DNA of 64,000 nt, taken from positions 1 to 64,000 of the forward strand of contig JAQUIG010000010.1 of NCBI GenBank assembly GCA_028683435.1, given 5' to 3'. Shown one piece after another: positions 15,103 to 35,245 of the stretch (its first letter is position 1; every line of letters starts with the position of its first letter). Under the pieces are notes generated by a model that had not been told where the DNA came from, made no database searches, and was given only the letters and a program-made list of their open reading frames with translations. This DNA comes from Desulfuromonadaceae bacterium (lineage in GTDB: Bacteria > Desulfobacterota > Desulfuromonadia > Geobacterales > Pseudopelobacteraceae). The position numbers were made by a program, and so were the translations under genes.

Positions 15103-16578
<1,476 letters not shown>

Positions 16579-16611
16579 TCATTGCCAAGCCCTTCTGTTC
16601 AAAGGTTTACT

Positions 16612-17826: not shown

Positions 17827-17828
17827 CC

Positions 17829-18530
17829 ATGCCGGCCTCCCCACAACAAAAGGTTCTTGTCTCGATTAACTCGGTTTCTAAAGCATACCAGCGCGGTAAT
17901 CAGCCGATACCGGTGCTGGAAGGGATCTCTTTCGAGATCGTCAGGGGTGAGTTTCTGGCCTTGATGGGGCCGTCAGGGTCGGGAAAATCAACGCTGCTCA
18001 ACCTGATCGCCGGGATAGACACCGTTGACAGCGGGTCCATCGTGATTGACGGCATCGATATTGCGACGCTGAACGAGGCGGAGCTGGCGCGGTGGCGGTC
18101 GGCGCATGTCGGCTTTATCTTCCAGTTTTACAACCTGATACCTGTTTTGACCGCGTACGAAAATGTTGAACTGCCGCTGCTCTTGACCTCGCTTTCACGC
18201 CGTGAGCGCCGCGAGCATGTTGAAGCCGCCCTGGCCGTTGTCAGCCTGACTGACCGTATGGAACATTATCCGTCGCAGCTTTCCGGTGGCCAGCAGCAGC
18301 GGGTGGCGATCGCCCGTGCGATCGTCACCGATCCTACCATTCTGGTGGCCGACGAGCCGACCGGCGACCTCGACCGGCTCTCTGCCGGGGAAATTCTCGG
18401 CCTGATGGACCGCCTGAACGAGGAGCAGGGGAAAACAATCATCATGGTTACCCATGATCCACGCGCTGCCGAGAAGGCGCATATCATCCGCCATCTGGAA
18501 AAAGGGCTGCTGACTGATGTTTATCCTTAA
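17829..18530 (+). CDS. ABC transporter ATPase, MacB/LolD type
   Basis: 233 residues, a complete nucleotide-binding domain. Walker A GPSGSGKST, Q-loop FIFQFYNLIP, signature LSGGQQQRVA, Walker B ILVADEPTGDLD and the switch His in VTHDPRAA are present. The ATG lies 2 bp after the adaptor stop and the 3' end overlaps the permease gene by 14 bp, so the three are one unit. In MacB-type systems the ATPase drives a mechanotransmission permease rather than transport through the membrane. The function here follows its neighbours: export or lipoprotein/envelope handling. Confidence 0.92.
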   Translation: MPASPQQKVLVSINSVSKAYQRGNQPIPVLEGISFEIVRGEFLALMGPSGSGKSTLLNLIAGIDTVDSGSIVIDGIDIATLNEAELARWRSAHVGFIFQFYNLIPVLTAYENVELPLLLTSLSRRERREHVEAALAVVSLTDRMEHYPSQLSGGQQQRVAIARAIVTDPTILVADEPTGDLDRLSAGEILGLMDRLNEEQGKTIIMVTHDPRAAEKAHIIRHLEKGLLTDVYP

Positions 18531-19674
18531 GCTTCTTTTCCGCAACGCTTTCCGCCATGCCTTGCGGACGTTGCTGACGATTCTGGGGATAACAGTTGCT
18601 ATTTTGGCCTTCGGACTTCTGCAGACGGTCATCAGTGCCTGGTATGCCGGAGCCAACGCCGCATCGTCCGCCCGTCTGATCACCCGGAACGCTATTTCAC
18701 TGGTTTTTTCGCTGCCAGTCTCGTATCGGGAACGTATCCGGAGTATCGAAGGAGTCTCGGCGGTTTCATACGCCAACTGGTTCGGCGGTGTTTATATCAC
18801 GGAAAAGAACTTCTTCCCCAGCCTTGCCATTGAGCCGGGTAGTTACCTGGAGCTTTATCCGGAATTCGTCCTGACAGCAGAGGAAAAACGGGCATTTTTA
18901 CTGGATCGGAAAGGGTGTGTAATCGGGAGAAAGCTGGCCGAGCGCTTTGGCTGGAAGATCGGTGATTCAATTCCTCTCAAGGGGACCGTATTTCCCGGGA
19001 CCTGGGAGTTTGTCGTTCGGGGCATCTACAGCGGCGCTGAAAAATCAACCGATGAATCACAGTTCTTTTTTCAGTGGGAGTACCTGAACGAAACACTCAA
19101 AAAAACGGTTGCCAGGCGGGCCAATCAGATCGGTGTATATATAATCGGTCTCAAAAACCCACAAAATGCCGCCGAGGTCTCCCTGGCAATTGACGCAAGC
19201 TTCAAAAACTCACTCGCAGAAACCCTGACAGAAACGGAAAAAGCCTTTCAGCTCAGTTTTGTTTCGATGACCGAGGCGATTGTCGTGGCGATCCGTATCG
19301 TATCCTTTGTCGTGATTATCATCATTATGGTGGTGGTCGCCAACACCATGGCCATGACGGCCCGTGAAAGAATCGGGGAGTACGCGATCTTCAAGGCGAT
19401 GGGCTTTCAGGCGCATCACATCGCCGGCATGGTTTTCGGTGAATCGCTCTTTATTGCGGCAACGGGAGGATGTCTCGGCATACTGCTGACCTTCCCGGTC
19501 GCGAGTAAATTCGGCGAGGTCATGGGGAACTATTTCCCGGTGTTCCAGGTTGATCGTTCAACCATCTATATGGATCTGCTCTTCTCTCTGATCGTAGGGG
19601 GCGTTGCCGGAATCTTTCCCGCCTGGCGTGCGGTCAGGATAAAGATTGCCGATGGTTTAAGAAGGATTGGCTAA
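18517..19674 (+). CDS. FtsX/MacB-type ABC permease
   Basis: 385 residues. TM1 near 15-35 (TLLTILGITVAILAFGLL), a large extracytoplasmic domain (about 45-255), then three membrane segments near 265-290, 310-340 and 345-375, the standard FtsX fold arrangement. ARERIGEYAIFKAMGF is the conserved coupling-helix region facing the ATPase. It overlaps the ATPase gene by 14 bp. The separate ATPase and permease resemble LolCDE/HrtAB-like layouts as much as the fused MacB. Confidence 0.9.
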   Translation: MFILKLLFRNAFRHALRTLLTILGITVAILAFGLLQTVISAWYAGANAASSARLITRNAISLVFSLPVSYRERIRSIEGVSAVSYANWFGGVYITEKNFFPSLAIEPGSYLELYPEFVLTAEEKRAFLLDRKGCVIGRKLAERFGWKIGDSIPLKGTVFPGTWEFVVRGIYSGAEKSTDESQFFFQWEYLNETLKKTVARRANQIGVYIIGLKNPQNAAEVSLAIDASFKNSLAETLTETEKAFQLSFVSMTEAIVVAIRIVSFVVIIIIMVVVANTMAMTARERIGEYAIFKAMGFQAHHIAGMVFGESLFIAATGGCLGILLTFPVASKFGEVMGNYFPVFQVDRSTIYMDLLFSLIVGGVAGIFPAWRAVRIKIADGLRRIG

Positions 19675-19683
19675 GGAGTTGTA

Positions 19684-21063
19684 ATGAAGATAAAAATTCT
19701 TGTCGTCGATGATGAACTGAGTATGCGGGAGTTTCTCTCGATCCTGCTGGAGCGGGAGGGGTATGCAGTGACCGTCGCCGGTTCCGCCGAGGAGGCGTTA
19801 CGTACGATGGCGTCTGGTTACTTTGATCTGGTGCTGTCAGATGTAAACATGCCCGGTCTTTCCGGCATAGAACTTCTGGCCCGCATCAAAGAGAAATCCC
19901 CCGAAACCGCCGTGCTGATGCTCACCGCCTTTTCAGCCGCCGAGCAGGCGGTGGAGGCGATGAAACTGGGTGCCTATGACTATGTCTGCAAGCCGTTCAA
20001 GAACGAGGAACTCAAGCAGTTGGTGAAAAATGCGCTTGAAAAGCAGGGGCTCAAGCGTGAAAACGTTCTGTTGAAAAAGAGTGTCAGCGAACGGGACAGC
20101 TTCTGCGGTATGATCGGCAAAAGTCGGCGTATGCAGGAACTTTTTGACATGATCCGGAAGGTTGCCGCCAGTCAGAGCAGTGTGCTGATACTTGGCGAGA
20201 GTGGAACCGGCAAAGAACTGGCGGCCCGTTCGATCCATACCTGCAGCCCGCGGAGGTCAAAGCCGTTCGTCGCCGTCAATTGCGGCGCCATCCCGGAAAA
20301 CCTCATTGAGAGTGAGCTCTTCGGGCATAAAAAAGGTTCATTCACCGGCGCGGTCAGTGATCGGCCTGGTCTGTTCGAACAGGCCGAAGGGGGGACGCTT
20401 TTTCTCGACGAAATCAGCGAACTGCCGTTACTGCTGCAGACCAAACTGCTGCGGGTGCTGCAGGAGCGTGAATTCAGGCGGGTGGGGGATGCCCAGACCC
20501 GCAAGGCCGATGTCCGGATGGTGTGCGCCTCCAACCGTGATCTTGAAGGAGAGGTCCGGGAAGGGTCGTTTCGGGAAGACCTCTTTTATCGCATCAACGT
20601 TGTGCAATTGGTTATGCCGCCGCTTCGGGAGCGGATTGAGGATATTCCGCTGCTGGTAGAACATTTCTGCCGGAAATATCAGGGGGGTGGGGCCTCCGTG
20701 CCGGTATCAGTCACACCCGGAGCCCTCAAGGCACTGATGAATCACCCCTTCCCGGGGAATATCCGCGAACTGGAGAACTGCATCGAACGTAGTCTGATTA
20801 TCGCCCCGGCGGTTATTTCTGAAAGTGCTCTGCCGCAACAGCTTCTGGTCACCAGACCACCCTGCCTCACCGCCGATTGCGATATCCCCGATGGGGGGAT
20901 AATGCTTGAACCGTTGCTGGAGGATCTGGAGAAAAAATATCTGCTCAAGGCGCTTGAGAAGAGCGGTGGAGCAAAAAAGAAAGCGGGTGAGCTTCTCGGG
21001 ATGTCGTTTCGTTCGTTCCGTTATCGGCTGGCCAAGTTCGGCCTGGACAGCGGCGAGGAGTAA
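19684..21063 (+). CDS. sigma54-dependent response regulator, NtrC family
   Basis: 459 residues. Receiver with Asp53 (LVLSDVNMPG) and CKPF; AAA+ with GESGTGKE, Walker [12 protein letters not shown] and an arginine-finger region; C-terminal Fis-type helix-turn-helix (AGELLGMSFRSFRYRLAKFG). The sigma54 loop reads GSFTGA in place of the usual GAFTGA, a variant whose effect cannot be judged from sequence. A strong site (AAGGAG) precedes the ATG, 9 bp after the permease stop. No histidine kinase gene lies nearby, so its partner is elsewhere. Its place between a pump and an AsmA-like gene suggests that it regulates this cluster. No convincing -24/-12 element was found in front of these genes. Confidence 0.93.
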   Translation: MKIKILVVDDELSMREFLSILLEREGYAVTVAGSAEEALRTMASGYFDLVLSDVNMPGLSGIELLARIKEKSPETAVLMLTAFSAAEQAVEAMKLGAYDYVCKPFKNEELKQLVKNALEKQGLKRENVLLKKSVSERDSFCGMIGKSRRMQELFDMIRKVAASQSSVLILGESGTGKELAARSIHTCSPRRSKPFVAVNCGAIPENLIESELFGHKKGSFTGAVSDRPGLFEQAEGGTLFLDEISELPLLLQTKLLRVLQEREFRRVGDAQTRKADVRMVCASNRDLEGEVREGSFREDLFYRINVVQLVMPPLRERIEDIPLLVEHFCRKYQGGGASVPVSVTPGALKALMNHPFPGNIRELENCIERSLIIAPAVISESALPQQLLVTRPPCLTADCDIPDGGIMLEPLLEDLEKKYLLKALEKSGGAKKKAGELLGMSFRSFRYRLAKFGLDSGEE

Positions 21064-21072
21064 CCGGTCACG

Positions 21073-21132
21073 ATGAAATTCAATACGAGGAATCTAAGGA
21101 TGTTACCGGATATTTTTAACGCATCTCTATGA
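21073..21132 (+). CDS. possible 19-residue leader ORF before the AsmA-like gene
   Basis: ATG at 21073 opens MKFNTRNLRMLPDIFNASL and its stop overlaps the AsmA-like start as ATGA. The AsmA-like start itself has no good ribosome site, so coupling through this leader would explain how it is translated. The leader's own site (AGGAG at 21056-21060) is about 12 bases away, longer than ideal. Could be chance. Confidence 0.25.
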   Translation: MKFNTRNLRMLPDIFNASL

Positions 21133-24100
21133 GCACTCTCATGCGCAGAGTACATATCGTACGTGCCCTTAAAATCGCAGCAGTAGTCGTTGCCGGCAGT
21201 TTTTTAACGCTGCTGATCTTCCTTTATTTCCTCCCGACCCTTGTCAGCAGCAATGCGGCACAGATCCGGATTCAGCAATTGCTCTCTTCCCACCTGAAGC
21301 GTCAGGTGTCCTGGTCGAACCTCGCGGTGACCTGGGCAGACGGCCTGACGCTCTCCGCCCTCAAGCTCGGCGAAGGCCCGCCGCCATTTCTTAAGACCAA
21401 TATTGACCGGATTGTTATCATCCCTTCCATCGGCCGTGCAGCCGACGGGCGCTTCGGCATCGACCTCACGATCCTGATTCGAAACGTTCGGGCTGAACTC
21501 ATCCCTGTCCCCAAAAAAGCGCCACTCCCGCCACCGGCCAAAGATCCATTGACTCTGCTGGCAGAGTCGATCCAGCGCATTCAGGAGCTCGATTTTCCGC
21601 TGCCTGTTGACCTGCGCGTCATGGTTGAGGTGGCACCGCTGCAGATCGTGTACCGGGCACCGGGAAAGCAGCTTCGGTTGGAGGATTTTTCGTTCCGTTA
21701 TGCGATGCCTTCGCTTGCAGCCAGGCCGATTACGGCTGAGCTTAACGGCCAGGTATCGGCCGATGGGCGGGAGATGGGGAGAGTCAGCCTCAACGCGAAA
21801 GTGAGCGATCTGGTAACCAAAACTCGGCGGATTCGTCCCTCATCTGCGCTTTTTGCCGTCGATGGGGCTGCGCCCGGCACAAACATAACGCTGTCCGGTG
21901 GACTCAGCCAGAGTGACGGTTTTGCCGCCCGCTGCAAGCTGGATCTGCCCCGATTGTTGGCGGTTTTGCAGCCGTTTGTGCCGCCGGCTGTTTCGAAGCT
22001 GGCGGGGATTGTTGAACTCCGGTTGCTGGCGAAGGCCGATGCGGACCGCGATATTCATGCCACGCTGACTATTGACGGCACCGGAGTGGCCGCACGCGGC
22101 GGTTTACTGAAAACAAAACGGGTCGGTCCGCTTGATCTAAAACTGCAGCAGCAGATTGACGTCGATCATACCCGCCACCTCGTCAATTTTCCGGGAGGCT
22201 TTCTCGACATGCCGGGCCTTATAAATGCCGGGTGGAGCGCAACAGTCACCAGCCCGACGTCGCCGGAAAGGACGCTTGATGTAAAGTTCGGCCCTCTGCG
22301 GCTCGATCTCGCCAGGACACTCCTCCTGGCTGCCCCGTTCCTTGCTCACGACACTCCCGTCAAAAATCTTGTCGGTGAAGTTTTCCTCCGTTCTCTGACG
22401 CTGCATCTGAAAGGGCCCGGAAACAACGGTGATCTTGCCGTTGCAGGCTTCGGCGTCAAAATACCGCAGATGCGGCTGGCTCTTAAAAGTGGGGAACTGA
22501 CCGCAGAAGATATCTACATGCTCCTTGAAAGTGCGGCATGTCCGCTGACCGTCAGTCTGCCGACCAAGCTGACTGCGGAGCTGCTCTGGAGCATCAGGCG
22601 TGCCGCGCTATCAGGTGCTCGCCCGCTCATCGTTCAGGGTGGACGCGGCAAGATAGGGGTGGCGGTTAACAACCTCAACCTGAAAAGCGGATCGTCGCGT
22701 AAAGTTGCCGCTTCCGCTCTGCTGACGCAAACAATTGATCTTGACCGCGCCTCACTTGGGACTCAGTTGATTATTGAAAAAACCCATAAACAGCTCCGGC
22801 TTCTGGTTCGTGCCTCCGAGAATGGCGAAATTGAGGTCAATTTGCCGGAGTTTGCCGTTACTGCTGCTTCCGTACGGGGAGTCCAATCCGGCAAACGATA
22901 CGGTCCGGTCCCGTTTGCTGCATCTTTGACAGCGGAAGGCCTTCGTTTCCCGGTTGGCAAAGATGTACGGCCGACACTGCAACGTGCTGAGACGAAGGTC
23001 TCGGCGGGTGATTTTCTGCAGCTGGGTGCCGAGGGGGCGCTTTCGGGGATGTCGCCCCGGCGTTTCGTAACAAAAGGCACTGCACGGCTTGACCTGCGGC
23101 GCGCCATGCCGTTTGCCGCCCCGTTTGTTCCGGCCGGTTTGAAGGGTGACGGTGTAATGACAGCGCTCTGGGATCTGGCCGGACCACTGCCGGAAAAGGC
23201 TTTTGTTGCCGAGAAACATCCGTTACGCAGGGCCCGGGCCGGATTGGCGCTCTTTGACAAATTCGAGCTGAGTATGAAGCTTGATAATGTCTCCGCCACG
23301 CTTCCTTCGGCCGGGGGGGCGATCACAATATCAGGTCTGCATACAAAACCTGATATCCGGGCTGTTTCAACAAAAAATGGTGAGTCTGTCAGCCTGAAGG
23401 GTGGGGTGGAGTTCTCCGGAGTGAGCGACCTCCCGGGGGCGGCCGGTAAAATGCCACCCCAGCATGGTTCATGTGTCTTTAACGGGGGACTTTCCGACTG
23501 GCGGGAGTTTCGTCTGCGGGAAGAGCTGAAGATTGATCCGCTGGCCGTCTCACATGAAGCCGCGCTGAACGTCAGCCGCATCGATGCGCTGCTGGATGAA
23601 AAAGAGCCGTTCAGCACGGCGACACTGATCAAGCGATTGGACGCCACTCTGTTAGCCGACGTTGACGGAAAGTTCGCTCGCGGATTGAAACAGCTTCTCC
23701 CCGGCTTTGATCTTGCGGGGGATGTCAGCGGTACACTTCGGGCCGACCTCAGCGCCGGTCGTGAGCTTGCGCTTCACTGCTCCCTGAAATCGAAAGATTT
23801 TGGCATCCAACTCGCCAACGGTACAAAGATCGAAGGTCTTCGCTCCGATATCGCGATTAATCGCGTGTATGCCCTCGCTCCGTCACAAGGTGACATCTGG
23901 ACGCCGCTCTCTACCTCCCTTGTCCGGCCGGCGGTCGTGCCGACCGCCAACCCCGGTGCTGCTGAAATTATCGGGCGGATCCATGACGATCTGCGCGGCG
24001 ACCTTCGCGGTGTCCGTTCGTTCTCAATCCGTCGTGTAACGACCAAGGTGTCCGGCATGCCGCTGGAGCTTACCGCGCTGGAGGGTGACCTGCTCTTTAC

Positions 24101-24731
24101 CCCGGAAAGCAGCGGTCTCACCTTTTTTCAGGCGAATCTGCTCGGGGGGACACTCCTTGCCCGCGGGGTGACAGATCTGCGCCCGGAGATACCTGTTGTT
24201 GCGGCGTCCAGTTCATTTTCAAATCTTGATGTTACCAATCTGCTGCCGAAAGAAACCAGACGCCTGGAGGCGGGGGAGGATGCGGAAATCACCGGCGAAA
24301 TGAGTCTGTCTGTGCCGCTGACACCCGAGCAGCGCGAGCTGTTTGAACAGTTGCGGCTGGCGCTGAATCTGCGCAAGATCGGAGCCAATACCCTTGAACG
24401 GGCGCTCTTCAGTCTTGACCCGTACGAGCGCAACGAGCAGCTTGTTGCCCAGCGCAAAATGCTGCGCTATGGCCGCCTGAAGGGGTTGCGGGCCAACGCG
24501 GTCGATGGTGCCTTCAGCATGGAGGGGGAGGTCCTGATTAAAGGGATTGCGGTCGATCTGCCGAAGGTCGAGCGCGTGCGGATTTCCGAACTGCCGCTTC
24601 GCCAGGAACTGGTGAAGAACCGAAAAACGATCATGGCGCTGCGCGGTTTTCTCGACCTGCTGCGGGCTGATACGCTGGTTGTCGGTCCAAAAGGGGAACT
24701 TTCATTGAAGCGGAGGAATTATGAAAAATAA
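21129..24731 (+). CDS. AsmA-like/YdbH-like envelope-spanning protein
   Basis: 1200 residues. One N-terminal membrane anchor (about 12-35) is followed by a long, mostly beta-strand periplasmic region with repeats of the style 'L-L-G-G-x-L-A-R-G', as in FFQANLLGGTLLARGVTDLR near the C terminus. Proteins of the AsmA/TamB/YdbH superfamily form hydrophobic grooves that carry phospholipids between membranes. Family membership is judged from size, anchor and strand pattern, not from an alignment. It overlaps by 11 bp with a lipoprotein gene whose end resembles YdbL, which favours the YdbH branch. Start at 21129; an ATG at 21141 is also possible. Confidence 0.7.
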   Translation: MSTLMRRVHIVRALKIAAVVVAGSFLTLLIFLYFLPTLVSSNAAQIRIQQLLSSHLKRQVSWSNLAVTWADGLTLSALKLGEGPPPFLKTNIDRIVIIPSIGRAADGRFGIDLTILIRNVRAELIPVPKKAPLPPPAKDPLTLLAESIQRIQELDFPLPVDLRVMVEVAPLQIVYRAPGKQLRLEDFSFRYAMPSLAARPITAELNGQVSADGREMGRVSLNAKVSDLVTKTRRIRPSSALFAVDGAAPGTNITLSGGLSQSDGFAARCKLDLPRLLAVLQPFVPPAVSKLAGIVELRLLAKADADRDIHATLTIDGTGVAARGGLLKTKRVGPLDLKLQQQIDVDHTRHLVNFPGGFLDMPGLINAGWSATVTSPTSPERTLDVKFGPLRLDLARTLLLAAPFLAHDTPVKNLVGEVFLRSLTLHLKGPGNNGDLAVAGFGVKIPQMRLALKSGELTAEDIYMLLESAACPLTVSLPTKLTAELLWSIRRAALSGARPLIVQGGRGKIGVAVNNLNLKSGSSRKVAASALLTQTIDLDRASLGTQLIIEKTHKQLRLLVRASENGEIEVNLPEFAVTAASVRGVQSGKRYGPVPFAASLTAEGLRFPVGKDVRPTLQRAETKVSAGDFLQLGAEGALSGMSPRRFVTKGTARLDLRRAMPFAAPFVPAGLKGDGVMTALWDLAGPLPEKAFVAEKHPLRRARAGLALFDKFELSMKLDNVSATLPSAGGAITISGLHTKPDIRAVSTKNGESVSLKGGVEFSGVSDLPGAAGKMPPQHGSCVFNGGLSDWREFRLREELKIDPLAVSHEAALNVSRIDALLDEKEPFSTATLIKRLDATLLADVDGKFARGLKQLLPGFDLAGDVSGTLRADLSAGRELALHCSLKSKDFGIQLANGTKIEGLRSDIAINRVYALAPSQGDIWTPLSTSLVRPAVVPTANPGAAEIIGRIHDDLRGDLRGVRSFSIRRVTTKVSGMPLELTALEGDLLFTPESSGLTFFQANLLGGTLLARGVTDLRPEIPVVAASSSFSNLDVTNLLPKETRRLEAGEDAEITGEMSLSVPLTPEQRELFEQLRLALNLRKIGANTLERALFSLDPYERNEQLVAQRKMLRYGRLKGLRANAVDGAFSMEGEVLIKGIAVDLPKVERVRISELPLRQELVKNRKTIMALRGFLDLLRADTLVVGPKGELSLKRRNYEK

Positions 24732-25323
24732 AATATTGAATCTGGAAAAAATATTATTCGCCCTGGTTCTTTTCGTATCGGGATGCACGCTCGCCAAGGT
24801 CGATGTCAATGTCGTCAGCGAACGGACGTCGCTGGAAAATCAGGTGCTCGGGACATACAACAGCCTGAACGAAGATATGCTGCTGGTCGCATCGGTGCGC
24901 GGCGTTTCTCCGACCGGTAAAATTGAAACGCCTCCGCGTCATACACCGGAACAGCTTGACGCCACCAGGGCGATGGAGACGATTGCGTTTCATGCCGATG
25001 ATATCGAGAGCTTCAAACGTCTCGGATGGGTCGGCGAGAATCAGGAGGGGTTGTTAACCCCATTCACCCGTGAAGTCCCGAAAGTTGCATCCGCAGAGCT
25101 GAAGTCGTTTGCCGCCAACTACAGCGAAGCAGAATTTCAACAGGTGGTAAAGGAGGTTAACCTGTCTCGTGAGACCCTGATGATGCGGGTGGTGCAGACC
25201 AATGAAAACTTTACGAGCAAGGATCTGCCCGCCATCAGAAAGGTCTTCGCCCGACTGAACCGCCAGAACAGCGCACCCGGCTCCAAGGTGCAGGAGCCTG
25301 ATGGTCGGTGGAGTACGTTATGA
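24721..25323 (+). CDS. lipoprotein with YdbL-like (DUF1318) C-terminal end
   Basis: 200 residues. The signal peptide ends in a lipobox, LFVSGC, so Cys22 would be lipidated. The C-terminal part (about 135-200) reads SRETLMMRVVQTNENFTSKD and closes with NSAPGSKVQEPDGRWSTL, recalling the YdbL/DUF1318 ending of the type 'G-x-x-V-x-x-x-x-G-x-W'. In E. coli, YdbH, the lipoprotein YnbE and YdbL act together as a bridge between the membranes. Here lipidation and the YdbL-like end occur in one polypeptide. AGCGGAGG precedes the ATG, which lies inside the AsmA-like gene. The next gene starts within its stop (ATGA). Confidence 0.7.
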   Translation: MKNKILNLEKILFALVLFVSGCTLAKVDVNVVSERTSLENQVLGTYNSLNEDMLLVASVRGVSPTGKIETPPRHTPEQLDATRAMETIAFHADDIESFKRLGWVGENQEGLLTPFTREVPKVASAELKSFAANYSEAEFQQVVKEVNLSRETLMMRVVQTNENFTSKDLPAIRKVFARLNRQNSAPGSKVQEPDGRWSTL

Positions 25324-28300
25324 GCTTAAAAAAACCTGTTTTAAATGTTTTTTACAGGACTGCCGTTTTATTCGCACTGTTCCTGTTAAACTGTTCTTCT
25401 ACCGCGGCCGCTCTGCCACTTGGCGATGAGCTGCTGGCGCCGGCGGCGCCCCGTCCGGCACCGCGATCCCGTCCGGAAATCTCCCCTCAGCCTGCTATTT
25501 TCAGCTCCCGCCAAGTCCTGTACGTTGCCCGTGCTGCCGACGGCACGCGGATGGTTACGGTTGAACGGGGGGACAAGGGGGACGAGCTTTGGCTCTACTC
25601 CTTCACCGCCGTTCCGGAACTGCCGCGCCTGCTCCATGCAAGCCAGGTTCGTCTTGCCGCGCCGGCTCTGAATTCCGCCGGAACGCTCGTCACTTTTGTT
25701 GATACAGAGGATGATGTCAAGGGTGATATCTGGCTGCTGAATCTGATAAAGTCTGATTCAGTTCCCCGGCGCTTGACCGGCCGGGAATCGGCCGATGACG
25801 CGCCGGTGTTTACGCCTGACGGGTCGGCGCTCGTGTACCAGCGTCAGCTCCCCGGCTCAGCAATGCGGGAACTGGTGCGGCTTCATCTTGACGATAATCG
25901 GAGCGAGACGCTGCCGCTCGGTATCGACGCCGCTTTTGCGGCCCCTTCGCCGGACGGAGGCAACTGGCTCTTTGTCTCACGCAAAACCGATTCGAGCGGC
26001 GATCTCTGGCTTTGGAACGAACGTGATGGGGGACTGACGCAGCTGACGAGCGGCGCCGGGCGTGATCTCTATCCGGTCTGGGAAACCCCGGATACGATCC
26101 TTTTTACCCGACACTCCGCAGCCGTTGGGAGCGCCGCAACCGGCCAGGAATCGGGGCAGATCTACCGGCTGCATCTCAAAAGAGACGGCAGTGACGGTTT
26201 CCCGTTTGTTTCTCCACTGACCTCGGCAGCATTGATGGCAGTGGCACCGCTTCCGGCGGGGGATCGTTTTTACTTTATCGCCGGTCTGGCCGGAGGGGGG
26301 CAGGTTATGTTTCTCCCTGCATCCGGCGAAATTCCGGATCGCGGGACCGCCGCCGAGCAGTGGGCACTGGCGCAGATACTTCTGGAGCGTCAGCCACCTG
26401 ACCCGGCTCATGCCCGCCTGGCTGCCTACCGTGTTCTGGCGAGGGAGGACCGTCCGACGCGCGAGGGGGCGCTGGCCGGACTGGCGCTGGCCGGACTGAT
26501 GGAGCGGGGTGGTGAAACCGCTCAAGCCGGTGAACAGTACGGAGCTGTTGCGCGTCGCTACGCCGGTTTTTCACGTGAAGCGGCGTTGGCCGGAATCGCC
26601 CGGATCAGGGTGCAGTCGGCGCAGCGGTGCAGTGATACCGTGCTGCTTCAGCGGCGGCAGGAGATACTCCACGGTGCGGAACAGGCGATGAAAGATGTTG
26701 CGGAGGGGCAGGGGGATGACGCCACGGCGCGCTATCTGATCGACGCGGCCCGTCTCCTGGCCGATTTCGGCGGCGGTGCCGCTGACCAGCTGGCTGCTGT
26801 CGGACGGGTTGAACAGGTGTCCCGCCTCAAAGATGCTTCCCGGTCGCTGAAGGCGGAGGCGGCCCTGCGCCGCGCCGTGCTGCTGACAAAGCTTGAAGGT
26901 GGTCCGGGGGCAATCGCGGCTCTGGTAGAGGTTGCCACGGTTTACGGTGATCAGGAAGAGTGGGCCGAAGCGGCGATCACTGCCATCCTCGATCAGGTTT
27001 CCCCCCGTGATCGTCCGGACCAGGGTGCGCTGGCAGCACTGGCCGAACGATACCGGACGGTGCTCCCCCGCTTGGCGATGGGTGCCTGGAATCGCCAGGG
27101 AGACGTGGCGTATCGGGCTAACGAGTGGGCCACAGCAAAGGATGCCTATCGCACGGTGCTTGAAAAATTCCCCGTTATTCCGACACCGACCGCTGCGGCG
27201 CGTTTTGCGCTGGCGGAAGTGCTCTATCGCGAGGAACGCTACGCAGAGGCGAAGTCGCTGTATGAAACGGAGATGAACCTGCAGCCGGAGGATACGCCGC
27301 TCTACCAACTTGCCCGGAGCGCCTATATCCGAAAAACGGTCGCCGCTGGTGAAAATCTATATCGCCTCGGGGAGGTTGCCGCCTCCCGTTCGATCTTTCT
27401 CGATCTGATCCGCTATGACGGGCGGAGTGTCGAAGCGCATCGCGGTTACATCAAATCTGTTGCCGCGATGGGGCAGGCCCGGGAGTTGCTCGGCCTGTAC
27501 CGGAAGATGCTCTCCTCCTATCCGGATGATCCGGTGCTCCTTTATGCAGCCGGGCTTACCCTGACCTATCTGCCGGGCAAGGAGAATCTGGCGGAGGCTG
27601 ACCGCCTGATCGCCAGGGCTGCGGAGCGGATGCCATCATCGGAGTATCCTCCCCAGACCAGGGGGTATCTTGCCGAGATCGCCGAGACGATGCATGGCGA
27701 ACGGGGTGGATTAGAGAGGGCGCTCGCACATTACCGTTGCGCCTGGTTGCTCAACCGGCCGCTGGAGCAGCCGGAAAACCGTGCCAACCTCGATCTGAAT
27801 ATCGGCAATATCGCTTTTCTGCTCGGCAGCAAGGCGACCGCCTGGAAGTTTTACAGCCAGAGACTCGCCGCAAAGATCCCGTTCGACAATCCCGATACGG
27901 AGCTGATCTTTCAGCAGCGTTATGCCGCGGTGGCGTTCCAGATGCACGAGAAAGAAGCGCCCATCGCCGGGTATCTGAGGGCGCTGCAGCTGGCGGAGGA
28001 ACGTCTCAATCCGTCCCGGCCGCTCGATCTGTTCGGCCGTCTGTCGCGGCGGGTCGTGGAGCGGCTGTTTTCCGGAACGGGGCTTAGTTCGTCAGCCCAA
28101 GCCTCCCTTGCAGAGCAGCAGGCGATAACCGCCGAGCTGGAACGACTGGGAGCGTCCCCACCGGAGGCACCCCCTTCGGCCGGGTGGAGCGATTTCGACC
28201 GTTCAATCCGCTTTCTGCTGCAGCGGGAACGGGCCCTGCTGGCCTCTGCACCTTCCTGGAGCAAAGATGCTGACAAAAGCGCTGCCGAACTGAACGGCAT

Positions 28301-31300
28301 GCTCGCCGGTGTGGAAAAAGAACTGGAGGCCGTGCCTCGCCTGGTGGAGACGGCTGCGGAGATCCATGATCGGCTCGGGCTGGCGTATCTTGAAGCGGAT
28401 CGCTATGCCGCTGCCCGTGAGCAGTTCGATGCCGCCTTCAGGCTGAACAGTGGGCTCGGGTTCAGCGGCAACCTCGCCTCCAACCGCCGTTCGGCCAGTA
28501 TTGCCACGTACAAGGAGGCGCATGCCGCTTCCGGTAAGGAACAGCAGCGCCTGCTGCGCCTGAGCCGAGACGGCTTTGCCGAGTTGCTGACTTTGATAGA
28601 GACAAATCCTCCCACGTCAAAAGTACCGGCAAAACGGAGCGGCGGCCTCGTGGCACTGTCCGCAACCGTGGCCCTCGACAAGGGTGGTTCAACCTCTGCC
28701 GCCTTCGGTTTCAGCGCCGAGCAGGAAAAACGGCTCGCTGAGACCTATTTGGCCCGCATCCACTCCGAACTGGGTAACCCGTCGGCCGCTTCCCTTCTGC
28801 TGGAGGATCAGTTGAAACGGTATCCGGCCGATAACGATAAAATTGCCGTGAGTGACCGGTACGGGGTTGCGCTCCTTGTCCACCGGGTCGCTTACATCGA
28901 TTATGCGCTGGGCAACCTCAAAAATGCGGCGGAAGGTTTTAAGCGCTCAACGCTCCTGGCTCTGCAAGGAGCCAACCCGATCAGCGCGATGCTCAATCTG
29001 GTTAACTGGGGGGAACTGCCGTCAGCCGATCCGAAACCGGTTGACATCGCCGCTTTCCTCGGCGCCGAGGCGCGTGTTTCGCGGCTTGCTGACGGTTCGC
29101 GTGCCGCTCTTCCGCCGCTCGTATATGGGCGCTATCATAATGATGTCGGAGCGCTTCTCGCCAGGCTGGCCCCTGCCGTAGCCGATGACGGCAGTCGTCA
29201 GGCGCTGCTACACAAGGCTCTGGAACGGTGGGACAGGACACTCTCCATCGTGGCCGACAGCAGTGACCCGGACCTGCTCCATCAGCAGCGACGCCAGCGG
29301 GTGACCGCCCAGCTTAACCGCGCTGCGGTTCTTGCGGCGCTTGGTCTGACCAATGCTGCCGAGGCGTCTCGCTACGCCGCTCTGGAGGAAGCCGACGGTG
29401 CGGCTGCGTATTCGCTCCAATGGCGCGCTCTTGCCGCCCTTGGACGCTATGATGAATCTCTCGGTGTGATCGAACATCTGCCGCTGACAGAGCATGACCT
29501 GCAGCGCGGCGAATTGCTGGAGCGCTTTGCGCCGCAGCTTGAAAAGCTCGCCGCCAAAAACCCCGAACAGGCGTTTGCACTGCTGGAACGTTTGAGTGAG
29601 CTGGAGCGGATTCAGCTGCTCGGACGGGGTGCTCTCGGGCTGGATGATCCGGTGACCACCAGTCAGTTCCGCGCCGCCGCACCCCACTTGGTCGAGATCG
29701 ACCGGCTGCGTGCTGCAGTTGCCAAGGCGACGGCTGCCGACAAGGAGTATCTGCAACTCCGGCTTCAGCAGGAACAGGCGGTCGTTGACGATCTCTTCGG
29801 CGCAAGGCTCGAACGGGTTCCGCCATATTACGCTCTGGCCGGGGAAGGCGCGTTGCGTCTTGCGGCGGCGTCGGTTGAACTGAGCAGGTTGTCACAGGAA
29901 GTGAACGTCTCGCAAACTCAAGCTGATGCATTCAAGGCCGCTCAGCAGCGATTCAATGACCTCCAGCGGGCTTTCAACAGTGAGTGCGCAGCAGGAAAAG
30001 GTGGGAGGCTTTGCCGCATGCTTTCTCCGCAACCGGTCGAGCTGATCGATGTATTGGAAACTCTGCCGGGGAAGATACTGCTCCGCTTCACGCCGCTTGA
30101 CAGCACGCGCTGGCTGCTCTTCACGGTCGGCGGAAAGGGTGTAATAGGTGCTGAAACTGTCGATACAACAGCGCTCAATGCCCGTCTTGCCGCTACTCCG
30201 CACGTTCTGGCTGCGTACGAGGATCCCTCCCGCTTTGCAGGCGCCCCGGTAATCAGCTGGGGGCTAAGCGCGACCCACCTGCTGCAGTCGGTTTCCCAGC
30301 GTAAACCGTTCCGCCGTCAGGTTATCGATCCTGCCGGCTGGTGGCCGGCGGCGGAACCATTTACCAAGCTTGTTTCACCCCGGATGAATGACCGCCTGCC
30401 CGATGCCCATTCCATCGTACTCCCGGCTCATGCCGGGCTGCTCCCGGAAGTGCCGTCACGCATCGGGGGAAGCGGCTATTTGCTGCCGTTATGGGAAGAT
30501 GAAAGTGGCCAGCGCCACCCGTTCTCAGAGCTGTCTGCAGCTGAAAATCTTTCCCTCGTCGTCGTCCCGCACGCCGGTTTCAGCCACATTTACAGCTTGG
30601 GGCATCTGACAGCGCTGATGGGTGTGCCATCGCTCCTTCTGTCTGACGGCGCACCGGGCGATTCTAAAAGATTCGTCGCTGCGTATGCACGTCAGTCGCT
30701 CGGTGATGCCGGTAAAACGCTGCAGCCGGGCTGGCTCCTTCTTGGTGATTGGGGGCCGGATGCGGCCGAGGCGGCAAAGCTGGGTAAAAGCCGTTTCAAC
30801 GAATACGGCAAAGCGGGCGTACTGGCGCATAACGCCGCTGCATACCCGAAAGCGCTCTCCCTGTTTGAGAATGCGTTGGCGATAGTCGCCGAAAACCCCT
30901 CCCTGGCAAAGCATCGCACCCAGTTGCACCTTTATGCCCGAGAGAGCGCGTTTGCCGCCGGTTTTACCGACAGGGCAATTGTCCATGCCGATGAGCTGGT
31001 CAAGGGGCTTGCCAAGGAAAAGCCGTATTCGCCCGAACATGCCGATGCGCTGCTGCGCCTCGGACTGCTGCAGGCGAATGGCGAGCGCTTTGCCGCTGCG
31101 GCTGTTTCTCTCAATGAGAGTGTCGGCATCTTTGCCGATCTCGGTATGGCAAAAGAGCAGGCGGCGGCGCTGGCGGACTTTGGCGTCGTGATGGAAAATG
31201 CGGTCAATTTCAGCGCGGCCCGCACCTTTTTCGAGGAATCGGCCGGTCTCCGCCGGACATTGAAGGATGATGTCTCTCTGGCCGAACAGTTCCGCAATCT

Positions 31301-33626
31301 TGGCCGCATCCATGACCTCCGCCTCAACCAGTATGCCGTTGCCGAACAGTATTATGCCCGTGCCGGGGAAATCTATGCGAGGGAAGCCAATGCTCCGCTG
31401 GAAGCTGAAACGCTCCTCGAACGTGGGCGCTGCCAGCGTCTGCTCGGCAACTTCCCGGCCGCCGACACATTATATAACGATGCGCTGACAAAGGTTGGTG
31501 CGAAGGATCTGCGCACAAAGATGCGGATCGTGCTGGAGCAGGCCAATAACGCCTGGTTCCAGGGGCGCTATCAGGAAGCGTTCGACCTGCGAGAGCAGGT
31601 GGAGAAAAATGCCCTGGCCGAAAAATGGCCGCTTGAGCAGGTAATGGCAAAGAACAGCGGCGGTCTGATCTGGTGGACGTTGGGGGACAACAAACGCGCT
31701 CTGCTGGAGCTGCGCGGAGCGCTGGAGCGTGCCGAAAAGCTGGCGGTCCGCCGTGATGAAGTTGCGACGACGCTCAACAACATCGGTCTCGTGCAGCGTG
31801 AAGCGGGGGAATATGCCAAGGCGCTGGAAACACTTGGCAAAGCGCTGGCGATAGACCGTAAGCTCGGCTCCCGCTGGGCGATGGCGTACGATCTGCGTAA
31901 TCTCGGTCAGACCCGCCTGAAGATGGGGGATGCGACCGCCGCGCTGCGGGAGTTTAGTGAAGCAGCCGGTATGGCGGCGGAAATCGGCGACAAGGTCAAT
32001 CTCGCCAAGATTCAACTCGCGCGCGGCGATGCAGAAACAGAACTGAAACAGCCGGCTGCCGCTGAAGCCAGTTATCGAAGTGCGCTTGAAATCGCCGATG
32101 CGCTGCTGCTGCGGGAAGTCCGCTGGCGGGCACTGTTCGGCCTCGCTCGTCTGCAGAAAATCGCCGGTGATTCGGTCGGTGCGATTGGCTCGTACCAGCT
32201 GGCGCTGGATACGGTTGAAGGTCTGCGCGCCGAGATCAAGCTGGATCAGCTGAAAGATGGTTTCCTCGCTGACAAGATGGATGTCTATTCCGGGCTTGTC
32301 ACTCTGCTGGTCGATCTGGGGAGAGGTGACGAAGCGTTTGCAGTGGCGGAACGTTCTCGTTCCCGCAACCTGATCGATATTCTCGGCCGTCAGCGGCTGT
32401 CACTCTCCGGGTCGGCCGAGCAGGAACTGTATGACCGCCAGAACCGGCTTAAGGAGCAGATGCTTGAACAGGAAAATCTGTCGGTTCAGGCGAAGAACCA
32501 GAAAGAGCGGGACCGCTATACCACGGCGCTTGAAAAGCTGCGCGGGGATTATCAGGATCTGCTGATCGAGATTGAGCGCAAGCGCCCGGAGCTGCTTTCC
32601 CTCGTGAAGGTGAACCCGACGTCGCTTGATGATATCCGTAAACTCCTTGAACCTGGTGTTGTTCTCCTCTCATATTATCAGCTGCAGGACCGGCTCCTCT
32701 GCTGGAAGATCGATCGGGAGCGGGCAACGCTGATTATTCAGAATATCCCGGCCAAAGATCTGGCCGCAAAAATATCGTCCTACCGTCGCATGCTGCAGAA
32801 TCTGGAGCCGCTGGAAAAACAGTCGCGCGAGCTGTATGACCTGCTGGTGGCAGAGCCGCTCGCACATAGTCCTTCGATCAAGGCGGTCGGAATAGTTCCG
32901 CACGGCAGTCTTCATTACCTGGCGTTTGCAACCCTGAGCGACGGGAGGGATTATCTGGTCGACCGGCAGAAGCTGTTTTATCTCCCAGCGACGTCGGTCT
33001 TGAAATATACTCTGGCGCGACGAAGTCCAGAGAAAAAGCTCCACATTCTCGCCATCGGCAACCCCGATCTCGGCAATCCGAACCTTGATCTCCCCTTCGC
33101 CGAGCGGGAAGCCGGAACCCTGCGCTGGAATTATCCGGACGTTACAACCCTGACCCGCGAACGCGCCACCGAGAGCTGGGTGCGGGAGCATATCAGCGAA
33201 TTCGGTGTTATACATATCGCTTCTCATGGCGAGTTCGATCCGGTCAACCCGCTCTTCTCCGCAATTCGTCTGACAAAGGATGCGAAGGCGGACGGCAAGC
33301 TCCAGGCAGAAGAGGTCTTCGGACTTGATATTCGTGCCGATCTGGTCGTGTTGAGCGCCTGTCAGACCGGGCTGGGAGATATACGAAGCGGTGATGATGT
33401 CGTCGGGATGAACCGTGCGTTTATCTTTGCCGGCACCCACTCCTTGATGTCGAGCCTCTGGAGGGTCAGCGACGTTTCGACGGCGATCATGATGAAACAG
33501 TTCTATCGCAATTATATGAGTTACGGAAAAGCCGAGAGTCTGATCCGGGCCATGCAGCATGTCAAAAATCGTTATCCGCATCCCGGTTATTGGGGGGCGT
33601 TTGTACTGACGGGGGATTATTTATAA
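25320..33626 (+). CDS. giant exported propeller-TPR-CHAT caspase-like protease with second degenerate CHAT domain
   Basis: 2768 residues. The start is ATG 25320, overlapping the lipoprotein stop as ATGA with GGAG seven bases upstream. A signal peptide ends near STAAA. A TolB/PD40-like beta-propeller (about 45-330; SPDGGNWLFVSR, GDLWLWNERDGGLTQLT) is followed by a long alpha-helical TPR-like region (about 350-1560). Residues about 1570-1815 resemble a CHAT fold without catalytic residues. A second TPR array (about 1820-2340) contains classic units such as ALETLGKALAIDRKLG. The C-terminal CHAT domain (about 2430-2768) has His2636 in IASHGEF and Cys2681 in LSACQTG, the caspase-type dyad. CHAT proteases cleave proteins after activation by partner modules. 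The target and trigger here are unknown, and export to the periplasm is inferred from the signal peptide. Confidence 0.88.
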   Translation: MSLKKPVLNVFYRTAVLFALFLLNCSSTAAALPLGDELLAPAAPRPAPRSRPEISPQPAIFSSRQVLYVARAADGTRMVTVERGDKGDELWLYSFTAVPELPRLLHASQVRLAAPALNSAGTLVTFVDTEDDVKGDIWLLNLIKSDSVPRRLTGRESADDAPVFTPDGSALVYQRQLPGSAMRELVRLHLDDNRSETLPLGIDAAFAAPSPDGGNWLFVSRKTDSSGDLWLWNERDGGLTQLTSGAGRDLYPVWETPDTILFTRHSAAVGSAATGQESGQIYRLHLKRDGSDGFPFVSPLTSAALMAVAPLPAGDRFYFIAGLAGGGQVMFLPASGEIPDRGTAAEQWALAQILLERQPPDPAHARLAAYRVLAREDRPTREGALAGLALAGLMERGGETAQAGEQYGAVARRYAGFSREAALAGIARIRVQSAQRCSDTVLLQRRQEILHGAEQAMKDVAEGQGDDATARYLIDAARLLADFGGGAADQLAAVGRVEQVSRLKDASRSLKAEAALRRAVLLTKLEGGPGAIAALVEVATVYGDQEEWAEAAITAILDQVSPRDRPDQGALAALAERYRTVLPRLAMGAWNRQGDVAYRANEWATAKDAYRTVLEKFPVIPTPTAAARFALAEVLYREERYAEAKSLYETEMNLQPEDTPLYQLARSAYIRKTVAAGENLYRLGEVAASRSIFLDLIRYDGRSVEAHRGYIKSVAAMGQARELLGLYRKMLSSYPDDPVLLYAAGLTLTYLPGKENLAEADRLIARAAERMPSSEYPPQTRGYLAEIAETMHGERGGLERALAHYRCAWLLNRPLEQPENRANLDLNIGNIAFLLGSKATAWKFYSQRLAAKIPFDNPDTELIFQQRYAAVAFQMHEKEAPIAGYLRALQLAEERLNPSRPLDLFGRLSRRVVERLFSGTGLSSSAQASLAEQQAITAELERLGASPPEAPPSAGWSDFDRSIRFLLQRERALLASAPSWSKDADKSAAELNGMLAGVEKELEAVPRLVETAAEIHDRLGLAYLEADRYAAAREQFDAAFRLNSGLGFSGNLASNRRSASIATYKEAHAASGKEQQRLLRLSRDGFAELLTLIETNPPTSKVPAKRSGGLVALSATVALDKGGSTSAAFGFSAEQEKRLAETYLARIHSELGNPSAASLLLEDQLKRYPADNDKIAVSDRYGVALLVHRVAYIDYALGNLKNAAEGFKRSTLLALQGANPISAMLNLVNWGELPSADPKPVDIAAFLGAEARVSRLADGSRAALPPLVYGRYHNDVGALLARLAPAVADDGSRQALLHKALERWDRTLSIVADSSDPDLLHQQRRQRVTAQLNRAAVLAALGLTNAAEASRYAALEEADGAAAYSLQWRALAALGRYDESLGVIEHLPLTEHDLQRGELLERFAPQLEKLAAKNPEQAFALLERLSELERIQLLGRGALGLDDPVTTSQFRAAAPHLVEIDRLRAAVAKATAADKEYLQLRLQQEQAVVDDLFGARLERVPPYYALAGEGALRLAAASVELSRLSQEVNVSQTQADAFKAAQQRFNDLQRAFNSECAAGKGGRLCRMLSPQPVELIDVLETLPGKILLRFTPLDSTRWLLFTVGGKGVIGAETVDTTALNARLAATPHVLAAYEDPSRFAGAPVISWGLSATHLLQSVSQRKPFRRQVIDPAGWWPAAEPFTKLVSPRMNDRLPDAHSIVLPAHAGLLPEVPSRIGGSGYLLPLWEDESGQRHPFSELSAAENLSLVVVPHAGFSHIYSLGHLTALMGVPSLLLSDGAPGDSKRFVAAYARQSLGDAGKTLQPGWLLLGDWGPDAAEAAKLGKSRFNEYGKAGVLAHNAAAYPKALSLFENALAIVAENPSLAKHRTQLHLYARESAFAAGFTDRAIVHADELVKGLAKEKPYSPEHADALLRLGLLQANGERFAAAAVSLNESVGIFADLGMAKEQAAALADFGVVMENAVNFSAARTFFEESAGLRRTLKDDVSLAEQFRNLGRIHDLRLNQYAVAEQYYARAGEIYAREANAPLEAETLLERGRCQRLLGNFPAADTLYNDALTKVGAKDLRTKMRIVLEQANNAWFQGRYQEAFDLREQVEKNALAEKWPLEQVMAKNSGGLIWWTLGDNKRALLELRGALERAEKLAVRRDEVATTLNNIGLVQREAGEYAKALETLGKALAIDRKLGSRWAMAYDLRNLGQTRLKMGDATAALREFSEAAGMAAEIGDKVNLAKIQLARGDAETELKQPAAAEASYRSALEIADALLLREVRWRALFGLARLQKIAGDSVGAIGSYQLALDTVEGLRAEIKLDQLKDGFLADKMDVYSGLVTLLVDLGRGDEAFAVAERSRSRNLIDILGRQRLSLSGSAEQELYDRQNRLKEQMLEQENLSVQAKNQKERDRYTTALEKLRGDYQDLLIEIERKRPELLSLVKVNPTSLDDIRKLLEPGVVLLSYYQLQDRLLCWKIDRERATLIIQNIPAKDLAAKISSYRRMLQNLEPLEKQSRELYDLLVAEPLAHSPSIKAVGIVPHGSLHYLAFATLSDGRDYLVDRQKLFYLPATSVLKYTLARRSPEKKLHILAIGNPDLGNPNLDLPFAEREAGTLRWNYPDVTTLTRERATESWVREHISEFGVIHIASHGEFDPVNPLFSAIRLTKDAKADGKLQAEEVFGLDIRADLVVLSACQTGLGDIRSGDDVVGMNRAFIFAGTHSLMSSLWRVSDVSTAIMMKQFYRNYMSYGKAESLIRAMQHVKNRYPHPGYWGAFVLTGDYL

Positions 33627-33842: not shown

Positions 33843-34373
33843 ATGAGAATGACACGTAGTATTGTTGCTGTCTTGGCTCTGTTGCTGGCAGCTTCTGTGG
33901 CGATTGCTGAAGAAAAAAGGTGGGTGTCGAGCGAGGGTACGGCGCTAAAAGCCGATGCATCGGCGACGTCAGAAAACATAGCAGATATGCAGATCGGCAC
34001 GGCGGTCACGGTTATCGAGTCCGGCGGTCGCTGGCTGAAGGTCAGGACGGCAACCGGAAAAGAGGGGTGGCTGTATACGGGGCGGGTTTCCGATACACCA
34101 CCGGCAGCTGAAGTTTCCGGCGACGGTGGCGGCCTGTTCGGCGCATCGATGCAGAAGAGTCAGATCAGTACGGCCAAAGCCGACAGTGCCCGCAGTATCC
34201 GTGGCCTTTCTCCGGAAGCGGCCCAGTACGCAAAAGATCGTGGCACCCCGGAAATGTACAAGAAATCCCTAGATGTTGTACTTGAACGTAAAGTTAGTGC
34301 CAATGAGTTGAAAGCATTTCTGAAAGAGGGGAAAATAGGCGAATATGCCCAGATACAGGGGGGTAAAAAATGA
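33843..34373 (+). CDS. exported SH3-domain protein
   Basis: 176 residues. Signal peptide (about 1-22, ending AIAEE), then a bacterial SH3 domain (about 25-85; TALKADASATSENIADMQIG, TGKEGWLYTGRV). A C-terminal helical part (about 115-170) contains RGLSPEAAQYAKDRGTPEMY. Bacterial SH3 domains often bind peptidoglycan or peptide ligands. AAAGGGGG precedes the ATG. Its stop overlaps the M48 protease start (ATGA), so the two are coupled and probably act together in the periplasm. Confidence 0.85.
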   Translation: MRMTRSIVAVLALLLAASVAIAEEKRWVSSEGTALKADASATSENIADMQIGTAVTVIESGGRWLKVRTATGKEGWLYTGRVSDTPPAAEVSGDGGGLFGASMQKSQISTAKADSARSIRGLSPEAAQYAKDRGTPEMYKKSLDVVLERKVSANELKAFLKEGKIGEYAQIQGGKK

Positions 34374-35245
34374 GGATTTTCCTATTAGGTGCGTTGGTAG
34401 TAGTGTCAGTTTCGGCTACATCGGCTTCAGCAGGCTTTTTTGACAAGATGCAGAATTTCGCCAATCCGGACTCAAAAGAGCGCAAAATATTTTCAGGTGC
34501 AAGCCAGCTATTATCAAGTTCGCAAGAAATAGATTATAAGACAGAGCGTTATATTGGTGAAAGCCTGGCTCTTGAAGGGTTGCAGCGTTTCGGCAATCCG
34601 GTGAAAAATGAATCGCTGCAGCGGTATGTCAACCTGGTAGGAACTGCGGTTGCCGGCAACAGTAAGCGTGCGACGATCCCGTATCAGTTCGCGGTACTGG
34701 ACAGCCCGGTGCAGAACGCCTTTGCCGTCCCGGGAGGGGTCATTTTCATCAGTCGCGCTCTGGTCTCTATTTTGGATGATGAGGCCGAACTGGCGGCAGT
34801 GCTTGCTCACGAAATCGGACACGTGTCGGCGAAACACGCATTGAAAAGCACCCAGCGCGCCCAATTTTTTCAAGGAGTAGGGACAATAACGGCTGCCAGC
34901 GTCAAGGGAGACAAAGGGAAACAGTTTGCAGCGGCCATAGGTGATATGCAGACGGTTCTGTTTGACAAGGGGCTTGATAAAACAATGGAGTTCGAAGCCG
35001 ATCTTGCTGCAATGGAGACGACCTATCGCACCGGATACGATCCCTCCGCGATGATAAGGGTATTGGAAAAACTGCAAAAGCTGGAAGTGTCCAGCACTGA
35101 TAAGAAGGGGTCATGGTTCTCAACGCATCCGCCTCTTTCCGAGCGCATTGCCAGACTTAAATCCCAACTGCGGAAATATCCGGATTATGCAACTCTGGCG
35201 TCTGTGCAGGGACGATTTGCAAAAAACGTGAAACTGAATAAATAA
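34370..35245 (+). CDS. M48-family periplasmic metalloprotease
   Basis: 291 residues. A signal peptide ends at SASA, near residue 22. The zinc site HEIGHVSAKH is followed by a third-ligand region FEADLAAMETTYRTGYDP and a family-typical WFSTHPPLSERI. Related secreted M48 proteases (BepA, LoiP) remove misfolded outer-membrane proteins. No TPR domain is attached, unlike BepA. It is coupled by a 4-bp overlap to the SH3 gene, which could supply substrate or wall binding. Confidence 0.92.
   Translation: MRIFLLGALVVVSVSATSASAGFFDKMQNFANPDSKERKIFSGASQLLSSSQEIDYKTERYIGESLALEGLQRFGNPVKNESLQRYVNLVGTAVAGNSKRATIPYQFAVLDSPVQNAFAVPGGVIFISRALVSILDDEAELAAVLAHEIGHVSAKHALKSTQRAQFFQGVGTITAASVKGDKGKQFAAAIGDMQTVLFDKGLDKTMEFEADLAAMETTYRTGYDPSAMIRVLEKLQKLEVSSTDKKGSWFSTHPPLSERIARLKSQLRKYPDYATLASVQGRFAKNVKLNK

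Follow-up and report, generated by a model that had tools for sequence, protein, structure and literature searches.

Three overlapping genes raise the question of how a protein bridge that may carry lipids across the bacterial envelope is anchored and controlled. They lie in the genome of a Desulfuromonadaceae bacterium (assembly GCA_028683435.1, contig JAQUIG010000010.1), of which we analysed positions 1 to 64,000, hereafter the window; all features described below are on the forward strand. The first gene encodes a 1200-residue AsmA-superfamily protein (21129..24731), the second a 200-residue lipoprotein of predicted outer-membrane type with a YdbL/DUF1318 domain at its C-terminus (24721..25323), and the third a giant 2772-residue protein that ends in a CHAT domain (25308..33626). 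A sequence-only reading of this DNA had proposed that the first two correspond to the Escherichia coli YdbH-YnbE-YdbL bridge, the roles of YnbE and YdbL being fused in the lipoprotein, and that the CHAT gene links the bridge to a protease. The three open reading frames (ORFs), overlapping end to start, were confirmed as it had placed them. How bacterial envelope lipid bridges are capped, assembled and switched is an open question. We put at roughly 50% the probability that the genes encode a trans-envelope lipid bridge of the YdbH-YnbE-YdbL kind, with the lipid anchor and the YdbL domain in one lipoprotein and a dedicated periplasmic CHAT protease. The strongest single result is that the CHAT gene is retained even in genomes where it has become unlinked from the other two.

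Conservation and co-retention of the gene set

The AsmA, lipoprotein and CHAT genes occurred together in all 20 relative loci that were fetched. A larger set was obtained by scanning genome contigs with the lipoprotein alignment and consists of the best 80 of 126 relatives; many of these 80 contigs come from the genomes of the 20 loci and do not count as independent of them. The 80 loci come from Geobacter and Geomonas relatives, Desulfobacterales, Desulfobulbaceae, Deferrisomatales, Desulfohalobiaceae, Desulfovibrio and Nitrospira. Among them the AsmA gene adjoins the lipoprotein gene in 75 of the 77 loci with room for it, and the CHAT gene does so in 71 of 78 (70 by automatic count and L135 by hand, its CHAT gene starting inside an over-long ORF). 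This three-gene pattern is not due to chance. Broken copies were also seen: the lipoprotein and CHAT ORFs are split in one locus (L052:3469-12426) and the AsmA ORF in another (L054:3753-7362), while related genomes hold intact ones.

Seven loci (L103, L105, L108, L112, L116, L123 and L124) have the lipoprotein without a nearby CHAT gene. For all seven, a CHAT orthologue was found elsewhere in the genome, full-length in six and, in the genome of L124, in pieces on separate contigs. On the complete chromosome of Desulfonema magnum, the lipoprotein locus is at about 7.5 Mb and the CHAT gene at about 0.41 Mb. We considered whether another gene had taken the place of CHAT at these loci and rejected this, since the downstream genes differ and the CHAT orthologue is present elsewhere. 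For the six unlinked CHAT genes that are full-length, flanking sequence of up to 1.5 kb contained no SH3, M48, AsmA or lipoprotein gene. We therefore regard the AsmA, lipoprotein and CHAT genes as the core of the system and the SH3 and M48 genes that usually follow CHAT as accessory.

At the D. magnum locus, three near-alike ORFs of one repeated gene (L112:10749-14257) follow the AsmA-lipoprotein pair, at the place where CHAT is expected; these may be mobile elements by which the genes became separated.

In 78 relatives, the source genome included, an AsmA orthologue was found in 37 and a CHAT orthologue in 37 (E ≤ 1e-50), and a lipoprotein orthologue in 34 (E ≤ 1e-20). AsmA and CHAT were both present in 36 of the 78. 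AsmA alone was found in one (G038), a 78% complete genome in which the AsmA match ends at residue 1089, and in another genome (G037) AsmA was absent and the CHAT match was partial (34%). Three genomes (G027, G029 and G038) had AsmA without a lipoprotein match, and in all three the AsmA matches are partial.

Split and fused DUF1318 genes in the phylum

In a survey of 197 genomes of the phylum, PF11739 (YdbH) was present in 18 genomes and PF07027 (DUF1318) gave 60 matches in 56 genomes; all 60 loci were fetched and classified. YdbL proteins without a lipid anchor of their own make up 18 of the 60. A separate YnbE-like lipoprotein is encoded just upstream of 12 of these, none was detected by motif for three, and three lie at a contig start. 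Two of the 18 (L221 and L229) were counted as unanchored because YnbE lies upstream, the lipobox call having fallen in an apparent ordinary signal peptide. The remaining 42 genes are of the fused form, in which a lipobox directly precedes a short alternating hydrophobic stretch, and the same motif identified a separate YnbE in none of these 42 loci.

The lipoprotein of the window resembles these fused proteins of Desulfobacterota in its arrangement of a lipidated cysteine, a short strand-like stretch, a helix and DUF1318, without a separate YnbE. No named family was found for the fused AsmA/DUF1318-lipoprotein pairs. On the other hand, it differs from them in motif (VTVNIYFP in theirs, VxVxxxSERTxLENQVLG in ours), in the absence of CHAT downstream of theirs, and in its position in a tree of the DUF1318 domain. 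In that tree (65 rows, 108 columns, built with a quick method and with many forks unresolved), nine lipoproteins of our system form one branch (SH-aLRT 96) and 37 other fused lipoproteins another (support 80), while the canonical YdbL proteins require two changes. The tree and the count of 42 in 60 indicate that the one-chain design is common in the phylum and that the form linked to CHAT makes up a single lineage within it. In the fetched stretches, CHAT lies downstream of four of the five system-type genes and of none of the 55 other DUF1318 genes; in the stretch of the fifth system-type locus (L271), CHAT was absent, as was any large ORF upstream.

These counts bear on the view that the CHAT gene is a mere syntenic neighbour, functionally unlinked to the AsmA/lipoprotein pair. 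That pairs of AsmA and DUF1318-lipoprotein genes without CHAT are common fits this view, but the preservation of CHAT at all seven separated loci, its near-complete co-occurrence with AsmA, and its confinement to system-type DUF1318 genes make it very improbable. The link between CHAT and the bridge pair proved stronger than the sequence-only reading had supposed from the gene overlap.

One chain with a lipid anchor and a YdbL domain

The lipoprotein matched PF07027 with 33.3 bits (curated cut-off 27; E 7.3e-8) over residues 92-198 (24994..25314), and all 47 members of its family alignment also matched PF07027 at E 0.01. Aligned with E. coli YdbL by hhalign, this 47-member alignment gave 90.9% probability (E 1.1e-6). 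Only one PDB entry matched the predicted structure (predicted local distance difference test score, pLDDT, 86.9) at E ≤ 0.001, namely 28oj, in which E. coli YdbL was crystallised (E 6.4e-4, probability 1.00, target TM-score 0.82) and whose PDB molecule name is 'Probable chaperone-like protein YdbL'. The resemblance of the ending APGSKVQEPDGRW to YdbL/DUF1318, first noticed by eye, is thus borne out by profile, profile alignment and fold. Upstream of the domain is a lipobox (FVSG-C22) with a cysteine conserved across orthologues, and a single chain thus does combine the lipid anchor with the YdbL domain. E. coli YdbL is a soluble periplasmic protein without a lipid anchor, unlike the lipobox-bearing protein found here. 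In E. coli, the residue after the lipidated cysteine (+2) bears on the membrane destination of a lipoprotein; the threonine found at this position in the window's lipoprotein and in at least 90% of the 47 members would, by that rule, suit the outer membrane.

The predicted mature N-terminus (residues 22-57; 24784..24891) comprises the lipidated cysteine, a strand-like VDVNVV stretch and a helix (34-57), and is the candidate for a YnbE-like segment. No other part of the lipoprotein is as conserved: the mean majority share is 0.79 for residues 22-33 and 0.84 for residues 34-57, versus 0.63 for the DUF1318 domain, in a set whose relatives were selected on part of that N-terminal motif. The scan looked for the patterns ENQVLG and LVASVRGVS, which accounts for part of their invariance in L056-L135. 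The motif is kept, with changes, in three loci (L266, L271 and L273) that were found by the motif-independent PF07027 search. Over the same 20 loci, mean conservation is 80% for the lipoprotein, 73% for CHAT and 55% for AsmA.

Similarity to YnbE itself was scored for 20 N-termini picked from the loci, 15 of them fused and 5 system-type, with 173 further lipobox N-termini and 1000 shuffles for comparison. Shuffles scored as well in 0.1-53% of cases with the core profile and in 0-76% with the full profile; the 99th percentile of the lipobox background was 20 bits, and this background appears to include some true YnbE proteins. Given the wide range of equal-scoring shuffles, homology with YnbE is suggestive only. 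It is plausible, though weakly backed by sequence, that the N-terminus plays the part of YnbE.

An AsmA-superfamily groove protein

The 1200-residue protein starts with a membrane helix (residues 2-39), followed by a predicted β-groove of about 1100 residues. It had no significant Pfam or NCBIfam match, and a search with the protein and 19 orthologues gave no Pfam match at E 0.01. At the same threshold, 17 divergent orthologues matched DUF748 in 13 cases, YhdP in 11 and AsmA in 8. The predicted structure (pLDDT 83.9) shows the N-terminal helix and then 55 strands. In a VIA structure search, residues 40-251 resembled the N-terminal groove of Vps13 (Z 10.2, root-mean-square deviation 5.0 over 162 residues), and Foldseek returned the N-terminal domain of Atg2 with probability 0.99 (E 0.014) and TamB with 0.60. 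There was no solved YdbH or AsmA chain among the 50 VIA matches listed, and a PDB sequence search with the AsmA-type alignment gave no credible relative. With a strand spacing of about 4.8 Å, some 50 strands of groove would extend over an estimated 24 nm, which is near the width of the periplasm.

Comparison of family alignments by hhalign was more informative; the lone E. coli YdbH sequence gave no match. The best match (99.1%, 939 columns) was to the AsmA family partnered by other DUF1318 lipoproteins in Geobacter-like relatives of the same taxonomic order; the AsmA proteins of the fused pairs are the closest in profile. A PF05170 AsmA family (98.3%), another DUF1318-partnered set (98.0%) and canonical YdbH (97.4%) followed, and TamB reached 35.5%. 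A TamB identity was rejected on this low value, the lack of a PF04357 match and the presence of the TamB of this genome as a different gene. We conclude that the protein is an AsmA-superfamily groove protein and not TamB, and that profile comparison prefers neither canonical YdbH nor PF05170 AsmA.

In the form given, the proposal of a YdbH-like protein is not supported, the protein being an AsmA-superfamily member outside Pfam's YdbH family. In the profile check that had been suggested for it, DUF748 was matched by divergent orthologues and not by the window protein itself, and PF11739 was not matched. The sequence-only reading had also named the observations that would speak against it, namely no DUF1318 hit together with a closer similarity to TamB or AsmA than to YdbH. 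Since DUF1318 does match, these did not occur together; TamB is excluded, and the values for AsmA and YdbH lie close to each other.

An apparently exported CHAT protein

The giant protein has a hydrophobic N-terminal signal, a TolB-like propeller near the N-terminus (E 2.6e-7), TPR arrays and a C-terminal CHAT domain (PF12770, E 4.1e-56; residues 2505-2770, 32820..33617). Its His2640 and Cys2685 are conserved without exception in an alignment of 19 orthologues, that of the window included, and the motifs of the His/Cys dyad were found in 57 of 58 CHAT domains, the 58th ending at a contig end. Its designation as a putative protease comes from the CHAT family and this intact dyad. An uncharged hydrophobic stretch occurs within the first 110 residues of all 68 CHAT-protein N-termini; by this crude criterion for export, the protein looks exported.

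The AsmA and lipoprotein ORFs overlap by 11 bases, and the lipoprotein ORF and the listed CHAT ORF, with a GTG start at 25308, by 16. The CHAT start is likely the ATG at 25320, which forms an ATGA overlap with the lipoprotein stop, has GGTGGAG upstream, and has a counterpart in 18 of 20 fetched orthologues, whose longest ORFs carry a methionine as residue 5. The overlap would then be 4 bases.

TPR-CHAT proteases such as Csx29 and separase-like proteins likewise have TPR arrays and end in a CHAT domain with the His/Cys dyad, and the domain resembles that of Csx29 across its length (E 1.7e-11). The protein of the window differs from them in its apparent export, in its N-terminal TolB-like propeller, and in its coupling to a putative envelope bridge instead of CRISPR or gasdermin partners. 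TPR-CHAT systems are known to be coupled to Csx30 or gasdermin-like partners. This similarity, and the patchy presence in the genus-level set, might point to a defence or regulated-death module in which envelope damage, e.g., by phage entry, triggers the protease. We consider such a role quite unlikely. The protein appears exported, PADLOC returned a generic TPR match only, the window proteins that were scanned with Pfam included no recognisable defence gene, and the set forms one lineage across classes that is retained even when unlinked.

Accessory SH3 and M48 genes

The fourth gene (33843..34373) encodes an SH3-domain protein and the fifth (34370..35245) an M48 metalloprotease, both with a signal-peptide-like N-terminus. 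In loci with enough sequence after CHAT, the SH3 gene is present in 44 of 52 and the M48 gene in 39 of 49. A set of 40 M48 ORFs, which includes some truncated at the end of the locus, has HExxH in 37. The M48 domain resembles BepA and LoiP, with BepA nearest (E 6.8e-25), but the protein's score of 87.8 bits falls well short of the 570 bits required for a BepA equivalog, and the protein is tied to the SH3 protein and this system. All five genes occur in the same order in a Nitrospira metagenome-assembled genome (L135:9848-19874), which suggests transfer or deep ancestry.

The M48 neighbour opens another explanation, in which the groove would serve the export of proteins or lipoproteins, or assembly at the surface, in the manner of GspN in type II secretion or TamB in the TAM, instead of bulk phospholipid transport, with CHAT and M48 maturing or degrading clients. 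The NCBIfam name of BepA links it to β-barrel assembly, and the giant protein with its TPRs and propeller could serve to retain clients. PMC12802150 deals with GspN, an AsmA-like protein, in the context of moving lipoproteins to the cell surface, which also counts in favour. Against this, the YdbL partner favours a YdbH kind of bridge, and no recurring secretion or barrel partner was found in the loci examined, where the search covered the window's own flanking genes only. Export is possible in our view, although doubtful.

Proposed mechanism and its weighing

In the lipid-bridge model, the N-terminal helix would anchor the AsmA-type protein in the inner membrane, its hydrophobic β-groove spanning the periplasm. 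The lipoprotein would sit in the outer membrane and dock with its short strand-forming N-terminus where the groove ends at the C-terminus, far from the inner membrane, while its YdbL domain would prevent mispairing of the docking strand. The TPR-CHAT protein may bind the bridge assembly via propeller and TPRs and cleave a bridge component or misassembled client when bridging fails, and the SH3 and M48 proteins may act as accessory quality control. The analysis establishes the genes and their domains, the conserved linkage, the joint retention after unlinking, the predicted folds and the intact catalytic residues, whereas the lipid cargo, the docking site, the outer-membrane location, the proteolytic activity and the cleavage target are inferred. 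A more specific version, which we regard as unlikely, is that CHAT acts as a separase-like gate that senses strain by its propeller and TPRs and cuts the lipoprotein near residues 58-75, a flexible stretch between N-terminus and YdbL domain, so that the YnbE-like and YdbL parts would separate and the bridge be switched on or off.

The system resembles E. coli YdbH-YnbE-YdbL in the order of AsmA-type bridge, lipid anchor and YdbL domain. It differs in having anchor and YdbL in one chain, in the attached CHAT and, usually, SH3 and M48 proteins, and in an AsmA protein that lies outside PF11739 and is longer than YdbH (1200 versus 879 residues). In E. coli, YnbE pairs with the bridge by a strand, and YdbL acts as a chaperone of YnbE.

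Several results weigh against the lipid-bridge model. PF11739 was matched by none of the 17 divergent and none of 20 AsmA-type orthologues, and nowhere in the source genome at E ≤ 1, a search in which the E. coli control was detected; membership of this family is rejected. Most Foldseek and VIA matches of the AsmA-type model were generic β-barrels. PF13617 (YnbE) likewise gave no match in the source genome at E ≤ 1, and hhalign of the lipoprotein with E. coli YnbE gave 4.8%, so of the proposed fusion of YnbE and YdbL roles the YdbL part holds and the YnbE part does not, as far as family membership is concerned. YnbE-likeness was near background for several members, and residues 21-33 were strandless and of low confidence in the model of the isolated lipoprotein. 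Finally, the source genome has a second AsmA-type gene (1174 residues; PF05170 above cut-off, DUF748 and YhdP weak) followed by a DUF1318 lipoprotein gene (227 residues) and no CHAT gene (L033:2687-6963, G000:C76), which shows that such pairs do not generally need the protease. We nevertheless favour a system that would work like YdbH-YnbE-YdbL, with the CHAT protein setting the assembly or activity of the bridge, yet whose AsmA protein and lipoprotein fail the YdbH and YnbE family tests.

No description of an AsmA/DUF1318-lipoprotein/CHAT system was recognised in the literature searched, a coverage that lacked most subscription papers. Anchor and YdbL in one chain, with an apparently exported CHAT protein that is retained even when unlinked, provide a testable case for proteolytic control of a bridge. 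The contrast of split and fused forms within one phylum offers a test of what YdbL contributes to YnbE.

Flanking genes

Directly upstream of the set (16468-21063) is a run of genes for HlyD, an ABC ATPase, an FtsX-like permease and a sigma-54 response regulator, which did not recur as a run beside the gene set in the 20 fetched relative loci. Downstream, an aconitase B gene (35457-37988) follows here and in several relatives, indicating a fixed chromosomal site kept by part of the lineage. The window also encodes a short Hsp70-like protein of 428 residues (40183-41469); DnaK is much larger.

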